Origin: Myxococcales bacterium
GTDB taxonomy: Bacteria; Myxococcota; Polyangia; Nannocystales; Nannocystaceae
Direction: 5' to 3'
Assembly: GCA_016793465.1 (NCBI GenBank)
Contig: JAEUJW010000009.1
Coordinates: 31,859-95,858 of the forward strand
Length of the DNA stretch: 64,000 nucleotides
Shown here: in pieces, positions 900 to 13,378 of the stretch
Numbering within the stretch: position 1 is the first letter of the stretch
Layout of the letters: each line of letters opens with the position of its first letter
Notes under the pieces: generated by a model
Told to the model about the DNA's origin: nothing
What the model saw: only the letters and a program-made list of their open reading frames with translations
Databases searched by the model: none
Program-made: the position numbers and the translations under genes

Positions 900-1331
900 T
901 CAGGCGGCGGGGCGGGCGAACGCGAGGCGGGCGAACAGCAGGGCGGTGAGCAGGCAGATGAGCACGGGGATCAGCGAGCCGGGGCCGTGATAGAGGGCCG
1001 TGCCGAGCGGCGAGTCGGAGGCGCGGAGGTCGAGGAGGGTGTAGACGAGCGAGGCGGCGAGCATGAGGCGCGAGAAGTCGCGCTGCAGGCGCGGGTCCTC
1101 GCAGCGCAGGCCCATGAGGGCGACGATCGCGGCGATGACGAGCATGTGCAGGTAGACCCAGCGGATGGCGTCGTCGTAGTGCGGGGACGTCAGGACGGCG
1201 TGGGGGACCTCGAACTCGGCGAGGCTGGCCTCGGCGCCGCGCGCGAGGATGCCGGCGGCGGGCACGGCGTGGAGGCCGGCGATGCCGAGGCAGGTCTTGC
1301 GGAAGCCGGGGAGCGGGGCGGCGGGCGACAT
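900..1331 (-). CDS. Small polytopic membrane protein, unknown function
   Basis: A 143-residue hydrophobic protein. Start chosen at the ATG at 1331 (MSPAAPLPGF) because hydrophobic segments begin soon after. Four likely membrane segments: around residues 14-30, a central pair near 58-105 (including VYLHMLVIAAIVALMGL and LMLAASLVYTLL), and a C-terminal one (SLIPVLICLLTALLFARLAF). No family recognised. It is downstream of, and co-directional with, the SulP/SPFH cluster but separated by 134 bp, so operon membership is uncertain. Confidence 0.65.
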   Translation of the reverse strand: MSPAAPLPGFRKTCLGIAGLHAVPAAGILARGAEASLAEFEVPHAVLTSPHYDDAIRWVYLHMLVIAAIVALMGLRCEDPRLQRDFSRLMLAASLVYTLLDLRASDSPLGTALYHGPGSLIPVLICLLTALLFARLAFARPAA

Positions 1332-1465
1332 GCGGCGATGCTGGCACATCGCGGACCGGCGCGCAGGTCGGGCCGCGCGTGCCGGAGGTGAGCGACGAGC
1401 TTTCTTCGCCGAACCACCCGCCTGTCCTCGCTGCCGCGGGCTGCTTGTTTCGGCCGCGGACCGGG

Positions 1466-2353
1466 TCAGGCGGGTTGTTCGGCGTGGTTTTGCGGGGGGA
1501 CCATCATGGCGGCGTCGGCGGCCCGGACCTCGCCGGGTTGCCAGCCGCGGAAGGCGACGGTGCGGTGGGGTCGGAGCAGGGACAGGGCGTAGAGCTGCTG
1601 GTAGGCGGCGTGCACGGGCGGGTCGCGGCGCAGCTCGGCGAGGGCGCGGCCGACGGCGAGGGGGTACTGGGCGCGGGCCTCGGCGACGAGGGGTGCGACG
1701 GCGGCGGCGGTGTCGGCGTCGAGGGAGGCGACGGCGAGGCGGCCGCGCTCCTGGATCTCGGCGCGGGCGCGCTCGAGGCGGGCGTTGATGGTGGTGAGCA
1801 GGTCGCGGGCCACGGCGGGCAGCACGTGCACGTCGCGGATGCGGACGCTGTTGATCTGCAGGCCCCAGGCTTTGGTCTGGGCGTCGATGTCGGCGCGCAG
1901 GAGGTCGGCGAGCTCGTCGTGGGAGGCGAGGATCTCGTGGAACGTGCGCTCGCCGAGCACGGCGGTGGCGGCCCGCGCGACCAGGTTGGGCAGGGCGGCC
2001 TGCCAGTCGGCGACGGCGAAGGTGGCGCGCGCGGGGTCGAGGACGCGGAGCTCGAGCCAGAGGTCGACGGTGACGCTGGTGCCGCGGGCGTCGTTGACGG
2101 CGACGCCGGGGAAGCGGCGGCCGTCGCGGCGCAGCGAGACGTCGTGCACGCGGACCCACGGGAGCGCGCGCGCGGGCAGGAAGTGCAGGCCGGGGCGCTC
2201 CAGGGTGCGGACGTGCTTGCCGAAGCGGGTGACCAGCGCGGCCTCGTTGTCGTCGACCTGGACGGTGAGGGCGCGCAGCGCGAGGGCGATCAGCGGGAGC
2301 ACGAGGAGGCCGAGGCCGAGGCCGATGAGGAGCTGGGTGAGGCTGGGGGTCAT
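1466..2353 (-). CDS. SPFH/band 7 family protein (second of a pair)
   Basis: 295 residues: one N-terminal membrane helix (about 6-30), then an SPFH domain recognisable from VDDNEAALVTRFGKHVRTLE and GLHFLPA, and a helical region rich in Ala/Arg/Glu (about 190-245) as in prohibitin, stomatin and HflC proteins. SPFH proteins form membrane-bound cages or microdomains. It starts 16 bp after the preceding SPFH gene, so the two are probably co-transcribed and may hetero-oligomerise like HflK/HflC. The C-terminal 40 residues resemble nothing I recognise. Function in this operon is inferred: scaffolding the upstream transporter. Confidence 0.85.
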   Translation of the reverse strand: MTPSLTQLLIGLGLGLLVLPLIALALRALTVQVDDNEAALVTRFGKHVRTLERPGLHFLPARALPWVRVHDVSLRRDGRRFPGVAVNDARGTSVTVDLWLELRVLDPARATFAVADWQAALPNLVARAATAVLGERTFHEILASHDELADLLRADIDAQTKAWGLQINSVRIRDVHVLPAVARDLLTTINARLERARAEIQERGRLAVASLDADTAAAVAPLVAEARAQYPLAVGRALAELRRDPPVHAAYQQLYALSLLRPHRTVAFRGWQPGEVRAADAAMMVPPQNHAEQPA

Positions 2354-2369
2354 GGTGGACTCGCGGGGG

Positions 2370-3236
2370 TCAGGCGGGGTCGTTGAGGAAGAGGGTGCGG
2401 CTCTCGGCGTGGGTCTCGTCGCGGCGGCGGGCGACGTAGTCGGCGAGCGTGCCGGCGCGGGCGAGGTCGGCGAGGTGGCGGCCGAGCGTGAGGATCTCGG
2501 CCTCGGCGGCGGCGGCGTGGGCGCGGGCGATGGCGACGCCGTCGTGGGCGGACAGCGTGCGCTGCTGGCACTCGCCCTGGGCGCGGAAGAACGCGGCGTC
2601 GGCCTCGGCCTCGGCCTGGATGACGGCGTTGAGGCCGTCGGCGAGGTCGTCGGGCGGGGTGATGTCGACGAGGTCGACGGCGATGAAGGCGACGCCGTAG
2701 CGGGCGCCGATGCGCTCGTTGCAGGCGGCCTCGATGCGGCGGCGCAGGCGGGCGAGCTCGCGGCGGATGGTCGCGTAGGAGCCGGCGTGGCGGATCCAGT
2801 CGGCGTCGTTGGGGTCGGGGGTGGCCTCGAAGGCGGCGACCTCGGCGCGGAGGATGCAGGCGAACAGGTCCTTGACGTGGTCGACCGGGGTGGTGAGGTC
2901 GAACAGCAGGCGCTCGAGCTCGGGGACCACGGGGACCCAGCGGACGGCGCAGTCGAAGCGGAGGATCGTGCCGTCGGCGGCCATGACGCGCAGGCCGTGC
3001 TGCTCGCCGATGAACTCGATGGTCTGCTCGTGGGTGGAGACCACGAGGGCGCGGTCCCACGGGGCCTTGAAGTGGAGGCCGGGGCCGTGGGTCAGCAGCG
3101 CGGCGTCGGGGCCGTGGCGGGCGGCGCCGAAGCGGGTGAGCACGGCGACGTGGCCCTCGTCGACGCGGAACACGCTGAGGGAGGTCACCGCGAGGGCGAG
3201 GAGGGCGAGGCCGAGGAGGACGCCGAGTGGGAGCAT
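2370..3236 (-). CDS. SPFH/band 7 family protein (first of a pair)
   Basis: 288 residues: N-terminal helix (LGVLLGLALLALAVTSLSVF) followed directly by an SPFH domain (FRVDEGHVAVLTRFGAARHG, GPGLHFKAPWD). The segment VVSTHEQTIEFIGEQHG matches the strand region in which HflC/prohibitin domains define their fold. An Ala/Glu-rich helix (about 195-260) follows. It begins 25 bp after the stop of the SulP-carbonic anhydrase gene and ends 16 bp before the second SPFH gene. I see no protease or NfeD partner nearby, which is unlike the usual slipin/NfeD or HflK/HflC-FtsH contexts. Confidence 0.85.
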   Translation of the reverse strand: MLPLGVLLGLALLALAVTSLSVFRVDEGHVAVLTRFGAARHGPDAALLTHGPGLHFKAPWDRALVVSTHEQTIEFIGEQHGLRVMAADGTILRFDCAVRWVPVVPELERLLFDLTTPVDHVKDLFACILRAEVAAFEATPDPNDADWIRHAGSYATIRRELARLRRRIEAACNERIGARYGVAFIAVDLVDITPPDDLADGLNAVIQAEAEADAAFFRAQGECQQRTLSAHDGVAIARAHAAAAEAEILTLGRHLADLARAGTLADYVARRRDETHAESRTLFLNDPA

Positions 3237-3261
3237 CGTGGGAGGTCCGTGAGGTGAGGGG

Positions 3262-5328
3262 TCAGAAGCGGGGGAACAGGGGGCGGGCGCCGGTGAGCGC
3301 GGGCGCGGTCGCGGGGTGGCGGTGGGCCTGGTCCTCGGCGCGGTGGTAGGCGGAGGCGAGGCCGCGGTTGACCTCGACGACGTCGTGGTTGAACGCGTGG
3401 TGGGCGGCGGACGCCGGGGGCAGGCGCTCGACGGCGTCGGCGGAGTCGACGATGGTGCCGTGGGGCACGTAGCGGCCGTCGGGGATCTCGACGCCGACGA
3501 CGACCGAGCCGATGCCGATGTAGCAGTCGGCGCCGACGATGCTGTCGTGGACCACGGCCTTGAAGCCGATGAAGGTGTTGTCGCCGACGTAGCAGGGGCC
3601 GTGGACCAGGGCGTCGTGGGCGATCGACACGTTGCGGCCGACGTACACCGCCCACGGCTGGCCGCCGACGCGCACGGTGCGGTCCTTCAGGGCGTGGAGG
3701 ATGACGCCGTCCTGCACGTTGCTGCCGGCGCCGATGAAGAACGGCGAGCCCTCGTCGGCGCGCACCGAGGTGTCGGCGGCGACGTGCACGTCGTCGCCGA
3801 GCACCACGCGGCCGATCACCGACGCCTTGGGGTGCACGTAGGCGGTGCGGGGGATGTGCGGGCGGGCGCGGATGTGGTCGAGCCAGGGGTGCGCGGCGGG
3901 GGTCGGCTCGTGGGGCGGGCGCTCGCGGTGGTCGTGGCGCTCGCCGCGGTCGTGGCGGGCGTGGGCGGCGGCGGCGGCGGTGCGGGGCGCGGGGAGGATG
4001 GCGCGGACCATGGGGTCGTCGGGGCGGGCGCGTGCGCCGCGGACGGGCCTGTGCAGCAGGAGGTGGACGCCGTGGATGAGGATGCCGCCGACGAGGCCGA
4101 GGAACAGGTGGTCGGTGACGGTGCCGATGGCGGTGACGGCGAAGGCGACGGCTTCGAGCCAGGCGGTCTGGGTGAGGTTGAAGAAGGTGCGCAGCTCGAT
4201 GAGGCGGAAGGCGATGACGCAGAGGAAGCCGGCGAGGGCGGTGAGGGGGACCTGGGCGATGGCGTCGGACAGGTAGACGACGGCGAACACCAGCAGGGCG
4301 GCGTGGCACAGCGAGGACAGGCGGGTGCGGGCGCCGGACTGGACGTTGACGCCGGAGCGGACGATGACGCCGGTGACCGGCATGCCGGACATCAGGCCGG
4401 AGCCGAGGTTGGCGAGGCCCTGGCCGAACAGCTCGAGGTTGGAGTCGTGCGACCTGCCGGTCATGCGGTCGACGGCGCGGGCGGACAGCAGCGACTCGGC
4501 GGCGGCGAGGATCGCCAGGGGGGTGACGCGGGTGATGAGGTCGAGCCAGCGCTGGTCCGGGACGACGGGGAGGCTGGGGCTCGGGAGGCGCGAGGGGACG
4601 GCGCCGACGCGCTCGATGTCCCAGTCGAGGTAGACGGCGACGAACGTGATCAGGCCGATGCCGAAGATGGCGGCCGGGAAGCGCTTGTGCTGGGCGGTGG
4701 TGACGACCAGGAAGGCGACGAACAGGCCGGCGGCGACGGCCAGCCAGGACACGTCGTGCAGCCAGGCGGGGCGGTGCATCATCTGGGCGAGGTCGATGAC
4801 GCGGTAGTTGAAGCCGAGGACCTCGGGGATCTGGTTGCTGAGGAGGGTGAGGCCGACGCCGGTGAGGAAGCCGGCGAGGACGGACTCGGGGACGCGGTGG
4901 ACGAGGCGGCCGGCGAGGGTGACGGCGAACAGGATCTCGAAGATGCCGACCAGGAGCGCGGCTGCGGCGACGCCCTGGGCCCCGAAGTCGCGGAAGATCC
5001 CGAGGACGATCAAGTTGAGGGCCGCGGCCGGGCCGGACACGGCGAGCGGGGCCCCGCCGAAGATCGCCGCGAGGCCGCCGCCGATCGCGCCGGCGACCAG
5101 GCCGGCGGTCGGCGGCAGGCCGGCGGCCACCGCGAGGGCGACGTTGAGGGGCAGCGCGACCGCGGCGACGGTGATGCTGGCGAGGATGTCCCGGACCGGG
5201 GAGCCGCGGAACACGTCGCGCCAGTCGGCGGTCCACTGCTGCCAGGCGAGCTGGAGGGCGAGGCGCTGGCGGGCGCGGAAGCTGGTCGACGGGTCCGGGG
5301 GGGCGCCGAGTGGGTTGTACGAGAGCAT
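3262..5328 (-). CDS. SulP-family anion (probable bicarbonate) transporter fused to a gamma-carbonic anhydrase
   Basis: 688 residues in two parts. Residues about 40-430 are a SulP transporter core (hydrophobic segments beginning RDILASITVAAVALPLNVAL; signature region GLANLGSGLMSGMPVTG). No STAS domain follows. Instead a His/Arg-rich linker (about 450-480) leads to a left-handed beta-helix gamma-carbonic anhydrase (about 500-660) with the Cam-type motifs SVRADEG, SNVQDGVILHAL and NVSIAHDALVHGP; these supply the three zinc-ligand His residues. The Cam proton-shuttle Glu after LHAL is Lys and the acidic loop is absent, as in CamH/CcmM-like enzymes. Predicted role: HCO3- uptake coupled to CO2 interconversion. 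Start ATG is preceded by AAGGAG. Confidence 0.9.
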   Translation of the reverse strand: MLSYNPLGAPPDPSTSFRARQRLALQLAWQQWTADWRDVFRGSPVRDILASITVAAVALPLNVALAVAAGLPPTAGLVAGAIGGGLAAIFGGAPLAVSGPAAALNLIVLGIFRDFGAQGVAAAALLVGIFEILFAVTLAGRLVHRVPESVLAGFLTGVGLTLLSNQIPEVLGFNYRVIDLAQMMHRPAWLHDVSWLAVAAGLFVAFLVVTTAQHKRFPAAIFGIGLITFVAVYLDWDIERVGAVPSRLPSPSLPVVPDQRWLDLITRVTPLAILAAAESLLSARAVDRMTGRSHDSNLELFGQGLANLGSGLMSGMPVTGVIVRSGVNVQSGARTRLSSLCHAALLVFAVVYLSDAIAQVPLTALAGFLCVIAFRLIELRTFFNLTQTAWLEAVAFAVTAIGTVTDHLFLGLVGGILIHGVHLLLHRPVRGARARPDDPMVRAILPAPRTAAAAAHARHDRGERHDHRERPPHEPTPAAHPWLDHIRARPHIPRTAYVHPKASVIGRVVLGDDVHVAADTSVRADEGSPFFIGAGSNVQDGVILHALKDRTVRVGGQPWAVYVGRNVSIAHDALVHGPCYVGDNTFIGFKAVVHDSIVGADCYIGIGSVVVGVEIPDGRYVPHGTIVDSADAVERLPPASAAHHAFNHDVVEVNRGLASAYHRAEDQAHRHPATAPALTGARPLFPRF

Positions 5329-5692
5329 GGGTCGCGGAGGCTCCTTGGCGAGGGCGTGCGGGGACCGGGCGGTCGCAGGCGGGCTGCGAGGTTCGCTGCG
5401 CGGACGTCCGGCGCGGCGGGCGGCGCGGGTCAGGCGATATCGTCAGGCCGGGGAATGTGCGGACTGCGGGCGCACGATATCGGTGCACGATCGTGCGAGG
5501 CGCGGGCGCGAGATTTCGGCGCCCGTGGATATGTGCGTAGCGCCGGGTGTGACGATATTCGGGCCGGGCCAGCCACGGCGCGGGCGAGCGTCGCGTCGGC
5601 GGCAGGCGCCGTCGATCCGGCCTGCGGGGCCCGACGCGGTCAGGCGCTGCAGATCGCGTCGGCTCGGCCCGCCGGGCCGTGGGACCTGCGGG
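5329..5692. promoter_or_regulatory. Gene-free leader with repeated GATAT boxes and a 12-bp palindrome
   Basis: 364 bp upstream of the SulP-CA operon. GATATC occurs at 5436-5441 and 5476-5481, GATATG at 5528-5533 and GATATT at 5554-5559; the second and fourth sit in related contexts (CACGATATCGG, GACGATATTCGGG). A perfect palindrome GCACGATCGTGC lies at 5485-5496. Such clustered AT-containing boxes stand out in this GC-rich background and could be operators for the transporter operon. No gene was found here. Confidence 0.35.
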
Positions 5693-6061
5693 CTACTGTC
5701 TGGGGGGCGGCGTCTCGACGTCGAGGGCGCGGGTGGGCGGTCCGACGGCGTCGTGGTCGCGGGCCGCGTCGCGCGTCCGCGGCGGGTGCGGCGGGTGCGT
5801 CAGCAGGTGCGCGACGATGGTCTCCTCGTCGTCCTCGGTCTCCTCGGACGGCGGCGAGGGGCAGTTCTCGTGGCGCTCCTCGATGCAGGGCACGTCGCGG
5901 GCGGGCACGGGCACGACCTGCTGCTCCGCGGTGGGCAGCGGCTGCGAGGCCGTCCACGGGCCGGCGAACACGCCGGCGACCACACACGCGAAGGCGAGGC
6001 CCAGCACGCGAGCGAGCTGGACCAGCGCATTGCGCAGGGTCTGTCCTGATGAGGGTGACAT
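5693..6061 (-). CDS. Single-pass membrane-anchored Pro/Glu-rich hypothetical protein
   Basis: 122 residues from the ATG at 6061. An N-terminal hydrophobic helix (about 14-36, VLGLAFACVVAGVFAGPW) is followed by an acidic stretch (SEETEDDEETIV) and a Pro/Arg/Asp-rich tail. Two Cys residues flank an Glu/Arg/His segment (CIEERHENC). No family recognised. The inverted repeat at 6114-6137 lies 53 bp upstream of the start and could control it. Confidence 0.55.
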   Translation of the reverse strand: MSPSSGQTLRNALVQLARVLGLAFACVVAGVFAGPWTASQPLPTAEQQVVPVPARDVPCIEERHENCPSPPSEETEDDEETIVAHLLTHPPHPPRTRDAARDHDAVGPPTRALDVETPPPRQ

Positions 6062-6113
6062 CAACCGCGCCGAAGGTAACGTCGGTGGCGCGAACGATGC
6101 AAGGACCGAATGC

Positions 6114-6137
6114 GACGATGATCGAAATTTCATCGTC
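6114..6137. promoter_or_regulatory. Inverted repeat, candidate operator
   Basis: GACGATGA (6114-6121) and TCATCGTC (6130-6137) are perfect inverted repeats separated by 8 nt; the centre contains the palindrome GAAATTTC. It lies in the gap between the genes at 5693 and 6229, upstream of the former. Function inferred only from symmetry and position. Confidence 0.35.
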
Positions 6138-6228
6138 GCGACGATCAATGGAGAAGCGAGGGTCGCGTATGACGAATCGCAGGTGGGCGATTGTCGTGTG
6201 ACGGGCGAGTGGAACGCGTTCGCGGCGA

Positions 6229-6804
6229 TCACGGGGCCGCGAGGGCGCGACGGATGCCGTCCTCGATCGCCACGGTCGAGCCGGCCCCGGCGCCGCCCTG
6301 CACGAAGGCCACGCGGCCCTGACGATCGAGGACCACCACGGTCGGCAGCGCGGCGACCTGCAGGCGCGCCGCGAGGGCGCCCTGCGGGTCCCAGCCGAGG
6401 TCGAAGCCGCGGCCGCGCAGGCCGGGCTCGGGGCTGAGGGCGGCGCGCTCGTTGTCCATGGCGACGACGACGACGGCGAGCCGGTCGGGGCCGTGCTGCT
6501 GCAGCAGGCGCGTGTAGAAGGCGAAGGTCTCGGGCCAGCGCTCGGTCCAGGTGGCGGTCAGCTCGAGCACGACGACGCGGCCGCGCAGGCCGGCGAGCGG
6601 GAGGCCGTCGCCGTCGACGAGCGGGACGGTGGCGTCGAGCAGCTCGCCGGGCTCGCGGTTCACCGGGGTCGTGATCGGGTCGGGCAGGCTCTCGGGCGGG
6701 CTCGGAGCGACGGTCGGGTGCGGCGGCGCGGGGGCGGTGCGGCAGGCGCACGCGAGCGCGAGGGCGACGAGGGCTCGCGGGGCGGAGGGGACGCGCGGGG
6801 ACAT
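6229..6804 (-). CDS. Thioredoxin-fold (TlpA/AhpC-like) lipoprotein lacking the CXXC motif
   Basis: 191 residues. N-terminal signal with candidate lipobox LACAC near residue 20, a Pro-rich linker, then a thioredoxin fold (about 50-190): VVVLELTATWTERWPETFAF occupies the place where TlpA-like proteins have WCXXC, and the cis-Pro loop survives as VAALPTVVVLDRQGRVAF. With both active-site Cys absent it cannot act as a thiol reductase; a binding or structural role is more likely. It lies 42 bp downstream of hemE on the same strand. Confidence 0.75.
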   Translation of the reverse strand: MSPRVPSAPRALVALALACACRTAPAPPHPTVAPSPPESLPDPITTPVNREPGELLDATVPLVDGDGLPLAGLRGRVVVLELTATWTERWPETFAFYTRLLQQHGPDRLAVVVVAMDNERAALSPEPGLRGRGFDLGWDPQGALAARLQVAALPTVVVLDRQGRVAFVQGGAGAGSTVAIEDGIRRALAAP

Positions 6805-7908: not shown

Positions 7909-8343
7909 TCAGGCGCGGGCGACCGTCAGCAGGATCATGACGACCATGCCGACCAGGGCCAGCAGGCTGACGCCGAACAGGATCGTGCGCCAGGGCTGCA
8001 GGCCCTTCAAATAGACGATCGAGTGGAGGACGCGGGCGCCGGTGAAGGCGAGCGAGCAGACGATGAGGCCGAGCTTGGGGGCGCCGGCGACGAGGTAGAC
8101 GAGGCCCAGCGCGTAGAACAGCGGCAGGGTCTCGAGCATGTTGCGGTGGGCGCGGATCACCCGGGCGGTGTCGGGGTGCTCGCTGGCGAGGAGCTGCGCG
8201 CCGCCGAAGGAGACCCGGGCGTCCTCGGGGTTCATGTAGCCCTTGTGCCTGGCCCGGGTGGCGGCCGTCATGGCGCCGAGGAGCAGCATCTGCAGCGCGA
8301 GCACGGAGCTGCAGACCGCGTAGACCTTAAAATCCGTGGACAT
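7909..8343 (-). CDS. MAPEG-family membrane protein (microsomal prostaglandin E synthase-like)
   Basis: 144 residues from MSTDFKV (in-frame ATGs also at 8349, 8355 and 8367). Four hydrophobic helices typical of MAPEG proteins, with the mPGES-type motif RVIRAHRNMLETLPLFYALG and the later ARVLHSIVYL; the Arg, His, Asn and Glu of this motif sit at the glutathione site in family members. Likely a glutathione- or other thiol-dependent membrane enzyme; substrate unknown. It starts with its own region upstream and ends 39 bp before hemE begins. Confidence 0.85.
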   Translation of the reverse strand: MSTDFKVYAVCSSVLALQMLLLGAMTAATRARHKGYMNPEDARVSFGGAQLLASEHPDTARVIRAHRNMLETLPLFYALGLVYLVAGAPKLGLIVCSLAFTGARVLHSIVYLKGLQPWRTILFGVSLLALVGMVVMILLTVARA

Positions 8344-8430
8344 GGGCATCGGCATGGCCCCCGGCATACCCGGGGGCCGCGGCGGGCGACAAGCGGTTTG
8401 TTGCGAGCCGCGCGGACGGCGTTCACGCGG

Positions 8431-9453
8431 TCACAGGCACACGGAGCCGGTGAGGGTCGCGGAGTTGAGGTCGACCTGAGGGGCGGTGCAGGACTGCCCC
8501 TGGGGGCAGTCGCTGTCGAGGTTGCACTCGCCGCAGATGCCCATCTTCAGCAGACCCATGATGTCGGCCTCGCCGCAGAAGCCGGACTGGCAGGCGGCGT
8601 TGCCCTCGGGCTGGCCCATGGGGTCCTCGGTGAGGCTGCAGCCCTCGTCGTTGGGCACGCTGTTGTCGGGGCGGCACTCCTTGACGCCGCTGAAGTCGCC
8701 GATGTCGTAGACGGGCGTGCAGTTGGGGGCGTCGGGCGGGCAGTCGGCGTTGGCGTCGCACTGGCTGCAGGTCGACACGGTGATGATGCCGGGGATGTCG
8801 AGGATGGTCGCGCAGGCGGGGAAGGCCGCGTCGGTGCAGGCGTCGGCGGACATGCAGCCGGCGCCGGCCTCGCCCATGTTGCACACGGCGCCGACGCTGG
8901 CGATGGGGTTGGGGACGGTGCAGCCGCCGCCGGGGCAGTCCTCGTCGACGAGGCACTCGCCGCACCAGCCGCCGAGGATCGGCACGAGGAAGCACCTGCC
9001 GGAGGCGCAGCCGCAGCCGGACGGGTCGGTGCAGGTGGCGTCCTGGGGCTGGAATTCGGGGTCGCCGCACAGCGACTCGGTGGTGAAGCCGCCGTCGCTG
9101 TTGGTGCAGCCGGCGGTCTCGACCGCGCAGGGGAACGAGTCGGTGAACGAGCCGAAGGTGTCGTCCGAGGTGAAGCTGGTCGGCACCGTCGGCACGGTGG
9201 GGTCGGAAGAGACCTCGGAGATCGAGACCGAGGAGGCGGTGCCGGGCGGCTCGGTCGACGGCGCGGTGGTGGTCGGCGGGAGCGTCGGCGTCGACGGGTC
9301 GGAGGCCGTGGCCGAGGTGACGCCCATGCCGAGCGACTCGTCGGCGCCGCTCTCGGAGCTACCGGTGGTGCCGGTGTCGCCGTCGCCGCCGGACGGCTTG
9401 CAGGCGAGGAGCGAGAGGGCGGTGAAGATGTTTAAGGTCGAAGTCAGGCGCAT
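8431..9453 (-). CDS. Cys-rich surface lipoprotein
   Basis: 340 residues from the ATG at 9453 (a GTG at 9462 is an alternative). Lipobox LSLLAC near residue 20, then a Ser/Thr/Gly/Asp low-complexity linker (to about 85), then a Cys-rich domain with repeated CxECxxDxDCP-type knots (GWCGECLVDEDCPGG, SQCDANADCPP, GICGECNLDSDCPQG). Such repeats occur in myxobacterial outer-surface lipoproteins; ligand unknown. Codes alone on the minus strand between the MAPEG gene and the KGG-like gene. Confidence 0.8.
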   Translation of the reverse strand: MRLTSTLNIFTALSLLACKPSGGDGDTGTTGSSESGADESLGMGVTSATASDPSTPTLPPTTTAPSTEPPGTASSVSISEVSSDPTVPTVPTSFTSDDTFGSFTDSFPCAVETAGCTNSDGGFTTESLCGDPEFQPQDATCTDPSGCGCASGRCFLVPILGGWCGECLVDEDCPGGGCTVPNPIASVGAVCNMGEAGAGCMSADACTDAAFPACATILDIPGIITVSTCSQCDANADCPPDAPNCTPVYDIGDFSGVKECRPDNSVPNDEGCSLTEDPMGQPEGNAACQSGFCGEADIMGLLKMGICGECNLDSDCPQGQSCTAPQVDLNSATLTGSVCL

Positions 9454-9564
9454 GGGGGCCACGGTCTCACGGGCGCCGGGTCGGCCGCAACTCGCGCGCG
9501 GACCCGCGTGCGAGCGCCGTTCCTGACGCGGGCACGCGGCGCGTCGCCCGGGCTCGCCGCTGCG

Positions 9565-10697: not shown

Positions 10698-12101
10698 ATG
10701 ATCTCGACCCGCGAGCTCCTGTTGGCGTCTGCCGTGGCCCTGCCGGCGACGGCCTGTTATCCGACCATCGGCGTGACGGACACCGGCTCGAGCGAGGGCT
10801 CGGACGCGGGCGAGACGACGGCGCCGACGAGCACCGGCGTGACGCCGACCAGCACCGGCGAGACCTCGGCGGGGCCGTCGACCTCGAGCGAGACGGCGGA
10901 GCCGACCACGGCGGTCACGAGCGGCGAGACCGGGCCGCAGCCGACCTGCGGCGACGGGGTGATCGACGGCGACGAGGCGTGCGACGGGGCCGAGCTCGGC
11001 GGGAAGACCTGCGTCGACGTCGACGAGTCGTTCGTCGGCGGCGACCTGGCGTGCGCGCAGGACTGCACGTTCGACACCTCGGGCTGCGAGGTCGACCCGG
11101 ACGCGCCGCTGGTGGCGCTCAACGAGGTGCTGTCGAAGTCGGCGACCGCGGGGCCGTTCGCCGACAAGGGCGACGCGATCGAGCTGTACAACGCGGGCGG
11201 GGTGGAGGCCGACCTGTCGGGCTGGAAGCTGTCGGACGACCCGACGCTGCCGCTCGACAAGACCTACGTGTTCCCGGTCGGCACGGTGCTGCTGCCGGGC
11301 GAGTGGCTGGTGCTGGTCGAGCTCGACGCCATGCAGGGCACCGGCGAGCTGCCGTTCGGGATCTCGAGCGACACCGAGGAGACGCTGACGCTGGTCGACG
11401 GGCTCGACGTGACGGTCGACCAGCTGATCGTCCAGGGGGCCGACGCGGCGCTGTCGTACTGCCGCCTGCCCGACGGGACCGGGGCGTGGTCGAAGTGCGA
11501 CCAGACGCTCGGGGCGGCCAACGCGGAGGCGAGCTCGGACTGCGGCAACGCGGCGCAGGAGCCGGGCGAGGACTGCGACGGCGCCGACCTCGACGACCAG
11601 ACCTGCGAGGGCCTCGGGCTCGGGTTCTCGGGCGGGACGCTGGCCTGCACGCCGACCTGCATGTTCGACGCGTCGATGTGCACGACCGACACGCTGGTGG
11701 TCGTCAACGAGCTCGAGTCGACCAACGACGCCATCGAGATCCACAACGCCGGCAACACGGCCGTCGACATCTCGGGCTGGATCTTGACCGACGACGTCGT
11801 CGACGTGAACTACGACCCGATGGCCGACCCCGAGAAGCTGGTGTTCCCGCCGCAGACCAGCGTCGCCGCCAAGCAGTTCCTGGTGGTCGCCAAGGGCATG
11901 GGCCCCGGCCAGCACCCGTTCGGGCTCAGCGCCAACGGCGACACCGTGACCCTGCTCGAGCCGAACCTCGCGGTCGTCGACCAGGTCTCGTACGGGCTCA
12001 ACGAGGCGGTCGTGTCGTACTGCCGCCTGCCGGACGGCCCGGGCGGCGTGTGGACGACCGGGTGCATGCCCACGTTCGGGATGGCCAACAAGGGGCCGTG
12101 A
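10698..12101 (+). CDS. Lipoprotein with Cys-rich DUF4215-like repeats and two lamin-tail domains
   Basis: 467 residues. Lipobox LPATAC at about 15-20, Thr/Ser/Glu/Gly linker to about 80, then CGDGVIDGDEACDGAELGG, a myxobacterial Cys-rich repeat that recurs in degenerate form near residue 275 (EPGEDCDGADLDDQTC). Each Cys repeat is followed by a lamin-tail-like (LTD) beta-sandwich marked by ALNEVLSK, DAIELYNAGGVEADLSGWKL and later VVNELESTNDAIEIHNAG, DISGWIL; both end in SYCRLPDG. So the protein is a two-fold internal duplication. TATACG ends 7 nt before the ATG. Surface or extracellular matrix role inferred. Confidence 0.85.
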   Translation: MISTRELLLASAVALPATACYPTIGVTDTGSSEGSDAGETTAPTSTGVTPTSTGETSAGPSTSSETAEPTTAVTSGETGPQPTCGDGVIDGDEACDGAELGGKTCVDVDESFVGGDLACAQDCTFDTSGCEVDPDAPLVALNEVLSKSATAGPFADKGDAIELYNAGGVEADLSGWKLSDDPTLPLDKTYVFPVGTVLLPGEWLVLVELDAMQGTGELPFGISSDTEETLTLVDGLDVTVDQLIVQGADAALSYCRLPDGTGAWSKCDQTLGAANAEASSDCGNAAQEPGEDCDGADLDDQTCEGLGLGFSGGTLACTPTCMFDASMCTTDTLVVVNELESTNDAIEIHNAGNTAVDISGWILTDDVVDVNYDPMADPEKLVFPPQTSVAAKQFLVVAKGMGPGQHPFGLSANGDTVTLLEPNLAVVDQVSYGLNEAVVSYCRLPDGPGGVWTTGCMPTFGMANKGP

Positions 12102-12123: not shown

Positions 12124-12149
12124 GAGACCCTCCGCGGGCGGAGGGTCTC
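12124..12149. terminator. Bidirectional hairpin between convergent genes
   Basis: GAGACCCTCCG and CGGAGGGTCTC form a perfect 11-bp stem with a 4-nt loop between the stops of two convergent lipoprotein genes. No T-run follows, so this is a hairpin-type or Rho-assisted terminator candidate. Confidence 0.6.
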
Positions 12150-12184
12150 ACCAATTCACGAGGCGGGCCCGGAGGGCCGCGGGG

Positions 12185-13378
12185 TCACAGGCAGCCGGTG
12201 CAGAGCTTGAGGTAGCCGCGCAGCTCCTCGTTGGGCTCGCCGTCGGCGGTCCAGTCCTCGGGCTTGTCGATGTACTTGACGTCGGTGCAGCCGGCCGAGA
12301 TGACCTGGAGGCCGAAGCCCGCGCCGGAGACGGCGGCCTCGCCGGGGTAGTTGAACTCGGCGGCCTTGGTGTACTCGCTGTCGTCTTTGATCTGGCAGTT
12401 GCCGCTGCAGCCCTCGATGACGGGCTTGCAGTCGTGCGGCTTGGCCTCGGACTGGTTGGACACGTTGGCGTTTAGCCAGGTGCCGTCGGGGATGTCGACG
12501 GTGATGTTGGCGGCCCAGGGCTTCAGGGACTCGATGCGGATGGCGCCGAAGCTCATGGCGGGGCACGGGCAGTCGGGCGACCAGGCGGCGTCGTTGCCCA
12601 TCATGTCCTTGAACTCCTCGCAGCCCTTGATCTGGTCGGCGGAGCAGGCGGGGGCGGGGCTCAGGTTGCGGCACAGTTTAATTTTGCCGACGCCGGCCGA
12701 CATCTTGACCGAGCCGTTGCCGCACCAGCCGGCGTCGCCCTCGCCGCTGATCGTGACGTTGCCGCGGACCGGGTAGGAGTTCTCGTTCTCGTTGTCCTCG
12801 GTCTGGACGTTGAGCTCGCCCTTGAAGCCCTTCGGCAGGTGGACGCGGAGGTGGGCGCCCGAGCGCACGGGCTGCGACTGGCCGTCGTAGTAGATGAAGA
12901 CGCTGCAGGCGTCCTTCCAGGTGCCGATGGTGCAGTTCTTCTCCGCGTCCATCATGTCGGCCTCGGTCGGCTTGGTCGGGCTGCCGCCGCCCTCGTTGTA
13001 GGCCCACAGGCTCATGCGCTCGAAGGTGCCCTTCAGGCCGGTGGCCTCGTCGCCGTTGGCGGTGGCGTCGTCCGAGAAGTCGTACTTCTGCATCTCGATC
13101 GAGATGGTGTTCTCGGTGTCGAACATGACCTCGACGTTGCCGCGGTTGGCGAAGTTGTTGGTGTACTCCTTGCGGCCGATGGTGATGCGGTTGATCTTGC
13201 CGTCGCCGTCGAGCGGGAACGGCAGGTCCTTGACCACGCTCTCCCACTCGGTGACCTGCGGCTCGCCGCCGCCGGGGCCGTCATCACCAGTATCATTGCC
13301 GGGATCCTTGGTGCAGGCGGACGTGCCGAGGAGGGCGAGGCCGAGGCCGAGGATCGTTGCCGGGGTGAGCTTTTTCAT
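12185..13378 (-). CDS. Secreted lipoprotein, unknown
   Basis: 397 residues. Signal peptide MKKLTPATILGLGLALLGTS with lipobox GTSAC, short Asp/Gly linker, then a long beta-rich region with many Asn/Asp/Gly turns: auto-transporter-like repeats such as RGNVEVMFDTENTISIEM and RGNVTISGEGDAGWCGNGS suggest a beta-solenoid-like or DUF4097-like surface. C-terminal Cys cluster (CKPVIEGCSGNC, CTGC). No enzyme motif seen. The coding strand is less GC-rich than its neighbours (many AAC/AAG/GAG codons). Confidence 0.75.
   Translation of the reverse strand: MKKLTPATILGLGLALLGTSACTKDPGNDTGDDGPGGGEPQVTEWESVVKDLPFPLDGDGKINRITIGRKEYTNNFANRGNVEVMFDTENTISIEMQKYDFSDDATANGDEATGLKGTFERMSLWAYNEGGGSPTKPTEADMMDAEKNCTIGTWKDACSVFIYYDGQSQPVRSGAHLRVHLPKGFKGELNVQTEDNENENSYPVRGNVTISGEGDAGWCGNGSVKMSAGVGKIKLCRNLSPAPACSADQIKGCEEFKDMMGNDAAWSPDCPCPAMSFGAIRIESLKPWAANITVDIPDGTWLNANVSNQSEAKPHDCKPVIEGCSGNCQIKDDSEYTKAAEFNYPGEAAVSGAGFGLQVISAGCTDVKYIDKPEDWTADGEPNEELRGYLKLCTGCL

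Follow-up and report, generated by a model that had tools for sequence, protein, structure and literature searches.

We analysed a stretch of 64,000 nucleotides from a Myxococcales bacterium (assembly GCA_016793465.1, contig JAEUJW010000009.1, positions 31,859 to 95,858), called the window below, and in it a cassette of three open reading frames (ORFs) that all lie on the minus strand (Table 1). The first encodes a SulP-type transporter fused to a gamma-class carbonic anhydrase (CA), and the other two, here SPFH1 and SPFH2, encode proteins of the SPFH type. The gap between the fusion and SPFH1 is 25 bp and that between SPFH1 and SPFH2 is 16 bp. An earlier note on this DNA had described a SulP core joined to a gamma-CA in place of the STAS domain, with two SPFH genes following at these distances, and both descriptions were borne out. 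The transporter core matched PF00916 with an E-value of 1.3e-60, CA family models matched the other half with three zinc histidines aligned, and PF01145 (Band_7) was found in both SPFH proteins (1e-18 and 7.7e-24). The Pfam scan gave no match to a STAS domain in the fusion, the gamma-CA standing there instead. A C-terminal STAS domain is usual, not universal, in SulP/SLC26 transporters.

Table 1. Features of the three-gene cassette (positions in the window; aa, amino acids)
Feature	Position	Strand	Description and basis
SulP–gamma-carbonic anhydrase fusion	5328..3262	minus	688 aa; open ORF, Pfam, AlphaFold2, Foldseek
SulP/SLC26 transport core	4132..5193	minus	Pfam Sulfate_transp, residues 46-399
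Linker, residues 426-485	3874..4053	minus	variable in 35 sequences; occupies the STAS position; largely low confidence
CcmM/Cam-type gamma-CA domain, residues 486-663	3340..3873	minus	family models, alignment
C-terminal PRF (window form of the [R/K]F-COOH end)	3265..3273	minus	alignment, database fusions
SPFH1	3236..2370	minus	288 aa; Band_7 domain, preceded by a hydrophobic N-terminal helix; system-specific subfamily
SPFH2	2353..1466	minus	295 aa; Band_7 domain, preceded by a hydrophobic N-terminal segment

The trio was looked for in other genomes. The initial genome collection gave nine relative loci, of which two were uninformative and were dropped from the count that follows: in L002 the contig ends after the fusion, and L009 is a fragment of 131 aa. 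In the remaining seven, SPFH1 and SPFH2 were directly downstream of the fusion. Altogether, 35 informative loci were read, from 33 genomes in two phyla, and in all 35 both SPFH genes followed the fusion in the same order, SPFH2 being truncated at a contig end in two of them; SPFH1 and SPFH2 overlapped by 4 bp in 28 of the 34 loci measured. In the first phylum (that of genome G001), 15 of 377 genomes carry the fusion; they have it at 17 places, and at one of these it is divided between two contig ends. SPFH1 (E<1e-30) was found in these same 15 genomes, at these 17 places, and nowhere else among the 377, where the next-best match was at 8.5e-15 (Fisher test of co-occurrence, 3.9e-27). In the second phylum, 12 of 58 genomes, including Fluviispira multicolorata and F. 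vulneris, carry the fusion and all 12 have SPFH1. A class-level search found the fusion in 8 of 96 genomes, of which five had been counted in the first set, while the phylum of G384 gave none in 148 genomes. Further matches, for which only the fusion was compared, came from Silvanigrella, Oligoflexus, and Bacteriovorax metagenome-assembled genomes, and the myxobacteria among the fusion matches included Archangium, Cystobacter, and Corallococcus; the range of the unit extends beyond myxobacteria, over the two sampled phyla. The genome searches scored at most three candidates per genome for the fusion and at most six for SPFH1, and the protein searches about 8000 candidates, with misses possible in both.

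Neither SPFH gene was found within about 1.5 kb of any of the 17 non-fused SulP loci. Chance adjacency was rejected on these grounds, that is, the 35 loci out of 35 in two phyla, the exact co-occurrence, and the absence of the pair beside non-fused SulPs. The view that the three genes are chance neighbours or the oddity of a single strain, with no functional link, found nothing in its favour beyond the fragment L009, and we consider it negligible. The earlier note had given a lack of co-occurrence outside this strain as a refutation; this was looked for, and the fusion stood together with both SPFH genes in every informative relative locus, which agrees with the dedicated three-gene unit that the note proposed.

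An AlphaFold2 model of the fusion as a monomer (mean predicted local distance difference test score, pLDDT, 85) was submitted to Foldseek. The core matched SLC26/SulP structures (E about 1e-19), and the C-terminal end resembled the gamma-CA of Cam and CcmM. The PDB sequences nearest to the core are those of SLC26Dg and then BicA, the cyanobacterial SulP bicarbonate transporter, with which the core shares the SLC26/SulP fold (6ki1). The fusion differs from BicA in that it bears a CA, has a Glu where BicA has an Asp, and stays far below the curated cut-off of the BicA model NF050096 (142.4 against 880 bits). This Glu, E278, and R324 of the core align with Glu347 and Arg393 of AtSULTR4;1, and they are kept in 35/35 and 34/35 aligned fusions, respectively (the window and 34 relatives). 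The AtSULTR4;1 counterpart of E278 is needed for H+-driven transport, and its BicA counterpart is the Na+-coordinating Asp (PMC8298490). E278 fixes neither the substrate nor the coupling of the fusion, because it is common to SulPs. We propose only tentatively that transport is inward and coupled to H+ or Na+.

Two kinds of transporter half were found. In six loci (L073, L074, L076, L077, L078, and L091) the SulP is divergent, with 24-29% identity to the window in the core, 67-73% in the CA, and 37-53% in the SPFH proteins. In a tree with 17 other SulPs of these genomes, the fused cores fell into two separate clades, each at 100/100, and forcing the 35 fused cores into one clade cost 53 log units. 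A single origin of the fused core was rejected by the approximately unbiased test (p-AU 0.00044), for a group that was defined by its architecture and tested after the tree had been seen, with long branches present. In the CA, SPFH1, and SPFH2 trees, the six divergent loci did not form one clade, and starred branches forced at least two changes. The split gene L089/L090, one gene cut by contig ends, was left out of the fusion alignment, the fusion trees, and the gap statistics, and the SPFH2 tree was built without L004, L093, and L089. Distances correlated strongly between SPFH1 and SPFH2 (0.92), at 0.79 and 0.83 between the CA and the SPFH proteins, and at 0.42 and 0.47 between SulP and the SPFH proteins. 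From these identities, trees, and correlations, the SulP core appears to be replaceable, and the CA with the SPFH pair to be the constant module. That two separate SulP types stand behind a constant CA and SPFH pair is a new point; either an exchange of the domain or two fusion events, independent of each other, may account for it. Because the CA is fused to two different SulP types, HCO3- can be argued to be the cargo, and bicarbonate is probably the substrate.

The CA half contains hexapeptide repeats (Pfam). The CcmM model matched residues 481-673 with an E-value of 7.6e-59 and the Cam-type model gave 3.9e-54, while the nearest PDB sequence is CcmM 3kwc, followed by dGCA1 and Cam, so that, among families and PDB entries alike, the N-terminal gamma-CA of CcmM from beta-carboxysomes and Methanosarcina Cam match it best. 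Behind the first zinc histidine, where Cam has a longer loop, the loop of the fusion is short, as it is in CcmM. All 35 aligned fusions share the zinc histidines, which alignment places at H545, H571, and H576, together with R523, D525, E526, N537, and Q539. In nearly all loci the CA is better conserved than any other part, with 61-75% identity to that of the window. These models and alignments make it a CcmM/Cam-type CA that shows no change at any active-site residue tested, which is a new point. The site looks intact and catalytic activity is predicted. The fusion differs from CcmM itself: nothing but a tail comes behind its CA domain, and it lacks the C-terminal repeats of CcmM, which are RubisCO small-subunit-like; its CA is tethered to the membrane, and it reaches 199.5 bits against the cut-off of 550 of the CcmM model NF053794. 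Since the C-terminus of SLC26 proteins is on the cytosolic side (PMC8298490), the CA domain would be cytosolic.

In the linker between the two halves, pLDDT is below 50 at residues 429-436 and 450-479. The His/Arg-rich linker that the earlier note had seen is present in the window (12 His and 14 Arg in 82 residues) but special to it: the linkers of the 34 relatives have 2-10 His and 3-12 Arg in 66-78 residues, and the trait was rejected as a general one. The last CA helix is followed by a tail of 25-61 residues, variable in sequence with a constant end. A terminal Phe is present in 34/35 aligned fusions (24 RF, 7 KF, 2 SF, 1 WF) and, among the matches listed, in 172 of 183 database fusions, 165 of them ending in RF or KF and 105 of the 183 carrying the full [D/E][R/K]F end. 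Of the 11 listed fusions that lack it, eight have I or L as their last residue, and one is far shorter than the other fusions. As a control, four stand-alone gamma-CAs of the same family and phylum were inspected; none ends in Phe, and SPFH genes sought in their stretches gave no match. This conservation, also a new point, suggests that the [R/K]F end is likely a docking tail, and its partner would most simply be the SPFH pair, because the pair is the only other constant component. One fusion of the locus set, L075 (G374:C384), lacks the terminal Phe; it is one of two cassette copies in its genome, and its SPFH pair is the most divergent, with the longest SPFH branches in the trees.

The predicted structure of SPFH1 has a helix at residues 2-20, and its best fold match was HflC, with prohibitin and stomatin also found. 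For SPFH2, the nearest solved sequence was QmcA, then stomatin. Profile comparison related SPFH1 and SPFH2 to each other (probability 98). The homologues of SPFH1 formed a closed set among the candidates scored, with 73 matches down to 7e-53 and the next two at 1e-4. For 12 of the 73, the length of the longest contig coincided with one among the 120 fusions listed. Like HflK/HflC of the HflK/HflC–FtsH system, the SPFH proteins of the trio are a tandem-encoded pair with an N-terminal membrane helix, and the HflC and HflK models matched them weakly (E about 2e-9). One could propose from this, and from HflC being the best fold match, that the pair acts in quality control or in lipid domains, as an HflK/HflC-like factor, and stabilises the transporter without enclosing it, the fusion alone transporting bicarbonate; the authors of the stomatin structure, for their part, leave open modes other than encapsulation (PMC12407830). 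However, the pair scored far below both cut-offs (36.5 against 134.4 bits for HflC, 37 against 159.4 for HflK), and HflC exceeded its cut-off in one of the 12 cassette genomes tested, on a different contig from the cassette. An HflK/HflC identity was rejected on these results. The wide gap to other SPFH families among the candidates scored and the strict pairing, which suggests a dedicated client, also speak against this explanation, and we find it rather unlikely. In QmcA the SPFH domain is predicted to be cytosolic, unlike that of HflK/C (PMC10434171). We place the SPFH domains of the trio on the cytosolic side with modest confidence, a placement that the charges flanking the N-terminal segments support weakly: within 15 positions after the SPFH1 hydrophobic segment there are 59 basic and 55 acidic residues in 36 sequences.

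The hosts were searched for other enzymes of inorganic carbon. RubisCO had no match in 26 of the 33 cassette genomes, and the remaining seven had a RubisCO family match over the cut-off (E from 5e-13 to 4e-28), which is an assignment at family level only. In the first phylum a beta-CA (PF00484) was matched in 14 of the 15 cassette genomes and in 240 of the 362 others; in the second the figures were 11 of 12 and 28 of 46. Over both phyla, 25/27 cassette genomes had a match. Carbon concentration and the sole supply of CA activity are therefore unlikely functions, as RubisCO is absent or weakly matched and a beta-CA is usually present; for the latter reason, it is not evident either that the trio serves to provide carboxylases with bicarbonate. 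The anaplerotic use proposed in the earlier note, and its choice of uptake as the direction, gained no support here. The same host profile would suit a trio working in the reverse direction, in which metabolic CO2 would be hydrated at the membrane and HCO3- exported by anion exchange, and the same three kinds of part occur in red cells, namely AE1 and stomatin (PMC5383999) and, from general background, the carbonic anhydrase CAII. The acidic residue E278 in transmembrane helix 8, though common in SulPs, suits cation-coupled symport better (PMC8298490), and another bacterial SulP–CA pair was proposed for uptake by authors who leave efflux open (PMC6458275). We regard export as unlikely.

On balance, we lean slightly towards reading the trio as one membrane machine, a bicarbonate transport metabolon organised, and possibly enclosed, by an SPFH assembly. 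The SulP–gamma-CA subunits would assemble via the CA domain, and bicarbonate crossing the SulP core would be converted to or from CO2 at its cytosolic mouth. On the cytosolic side, SPFH1 and SPFH2 would build a ring or dome as a hetero-oligomer, enclosing or corralling the transporter, which would dock by the flexible tail ending in [R/K]F. The output would most likely be coupled HCO3-/CO2/H+ handling (internal pH, CO2 homeostasis) in heterotrophs, and not carbon fixation. The SPFH microdomain suggested in the earlier note finds an analogy in a known structure, the stomatin dome, which encloses AQP1 and UT-B in erythrocytes (PMC12407830). By the same analogy, enclosure of the transporter by the SPFH pair is a real possibility, to which we do not commit ourselves. 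A more specific picture, which we advance with some doubt, is that of a membrane-docked inorganic-carbon chamber, a plug-in transporter cage in which an SPFH dome and a CcmM-type CA outside the carboxysome would receive at least two kinds of SulP held by the [R/K]F end; if so, HCO3-, CO2, and H+ would be interconverted inside a confined cytosolic space.

Several observations weigh against the metabolon reading. SLC26 transporters are dimers and gamma-CAs are trimers, so the stoichiometry of the fusion does not match simply. The tail is disordered in the AlphaFold2 model, with low confidence across most of residues 670-688, and the choice of its partner is a guess. In front of the SPFH1 hydrophobic segment no Lys or Arg was found in the 36 sequences, yet 24 of them have zero residues there; the corresponding tally for SPFH2 is 17 before against 40 after the segment, some of the former coming from doubtful starts. 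The fragment L009 is a main-type SulP, 55% identical, without CA or SPFH downstream; it sits near the start of a contig of 5.9 kb, and no SPFH1 match was obtained in its genome, of 1.6 Mb. It is the single possible exception to the pairing. In the stomatin structure paper, AE1 occurs only in the reference list, the enclosed clients being AQP1 and UT-B (PMC12407830). Finally, E278 is also present in 14/17 and R324 in 16/17 other SulPs, and the substrate of a SulP is not readable from sequence. The best SulP-type NCBIfam model in 7/7 scanned fusions was that of DauA, a dicarboxylate carrier, far below its cut-off, and the DauA and sulP models outscored the BicA model in all seven. These last points would fit a SulP core that carries another anion (sulfate or dicarboxylate), with the gamma-CA as a structural or regulatory substitute for STAS, perhaps non-catalytic. 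Such a role accords poorly with zinc ligands and an Arg, Asp, Glu, Asn, and Gln set identical in 35/35, with a CA that is the best conserved part in nearly all loci, and with two different SulP types bearing the same CA, and we judge it improbable.

With regard to known systems, the trio looks like a bacterial counterpart of the red-cell partnership of transporter, carbonic anhydrase, and stomatin. The HCO3-/Cl- exchange carried out by AE1 is increased by stomatin (PMC5383999). As in the stomatin systems, an SPFH protein goes with a membrane transporter; CAII, from general background, supplies the third kind of part. The stomatin systems differ in being made of separate eukaryotic genes and a homo-oligomer, while the trio is a bacterial cluster with two SPFH proteins and a CA fused to the transporter. 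Fusions of SulP and carbonic anhydrase were reportedly treated by Felce and Saier in 2004. In Acidithiobacillus ferrooxidans, the can2-sulP operon pairs a SulP with a CA, for which coupling of HCO3- transport to CO2 interconversion was proposed (PMC6458275). In both cases a SulP transporter stands beside or is joined to a CA; the can2-sulP pair uses a beta-CA, whereas the trio has a CcmM/Cam-type gamma-CA for STAS and two SPFH genes. A literature search for SulP, carbonic anhydrase, and SPFH together found no description of the trio among the papers listed, most subscription papers being outside its reach. The trio links a bacterial SPFH pair to a single constant transporter partner and offers a genetically fixed minimal version of the red-cell partnership. 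It also shows a CcmM-type gamma-CA in organisms that mostly have no RubisCO match. Because the presumed client and cage are co-encoded and the last residue of the client is conserved, client selection and regulation by SPFH domes become directly testable.

The genes flanking the trio differ between lineages, and a fourth gene conserved across lineages was rejected (several loci have short flanks). A scan of positions 1300-6300 of the window gave one site resembling a terminator, on the plus strand, and none resembling a promoter. Between the cassette and the next gene lie about 900 bp (5329-6228) in which neither a convincing gene nor a sigma-70-like promoter was found. Beyond this gap lies an AhpC/TSA-type (TlpA-like) gene at 6229-6804 on the minus strand. 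In L001, L003, L007, and L008, two divergent genes were observed upstream of the fusion, one of 598-599 aa (flotillin-type by eye) and one of 1765-1942 aa (ATPase-like by eye), perhaps a second SPFH locus next door. A second CA class stands beside the cassette in two loci of low-GC genomes, L083 (G440) and L085 (G438), where a divergent beta-CA gene was found upstream, at about 12146-12793 on the plus strand and about 8149-8613 on the minus strand, respectively. Restricted to the second phylum are two families of small proteins, apparently secreted, that flank the cassette, one of 128-159 aa with a motif near DWGDNYYNDGLWLN and the other of 107-146 aa. They were found downstream of SPFH2 in L080, L082, L083, L085, L087, and L088, and upstream of the fusion in L082, L083, L085, L086, and L087. 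Elsewhere in the window, a search for tRNA genes over the 64 kb gave none, and positions 8431-9462 and 10698-12101 encode predicted exported proteins, Thr/Ser-rich and containing Cys, which we take to be of a kind present in Nannocystis relatives.

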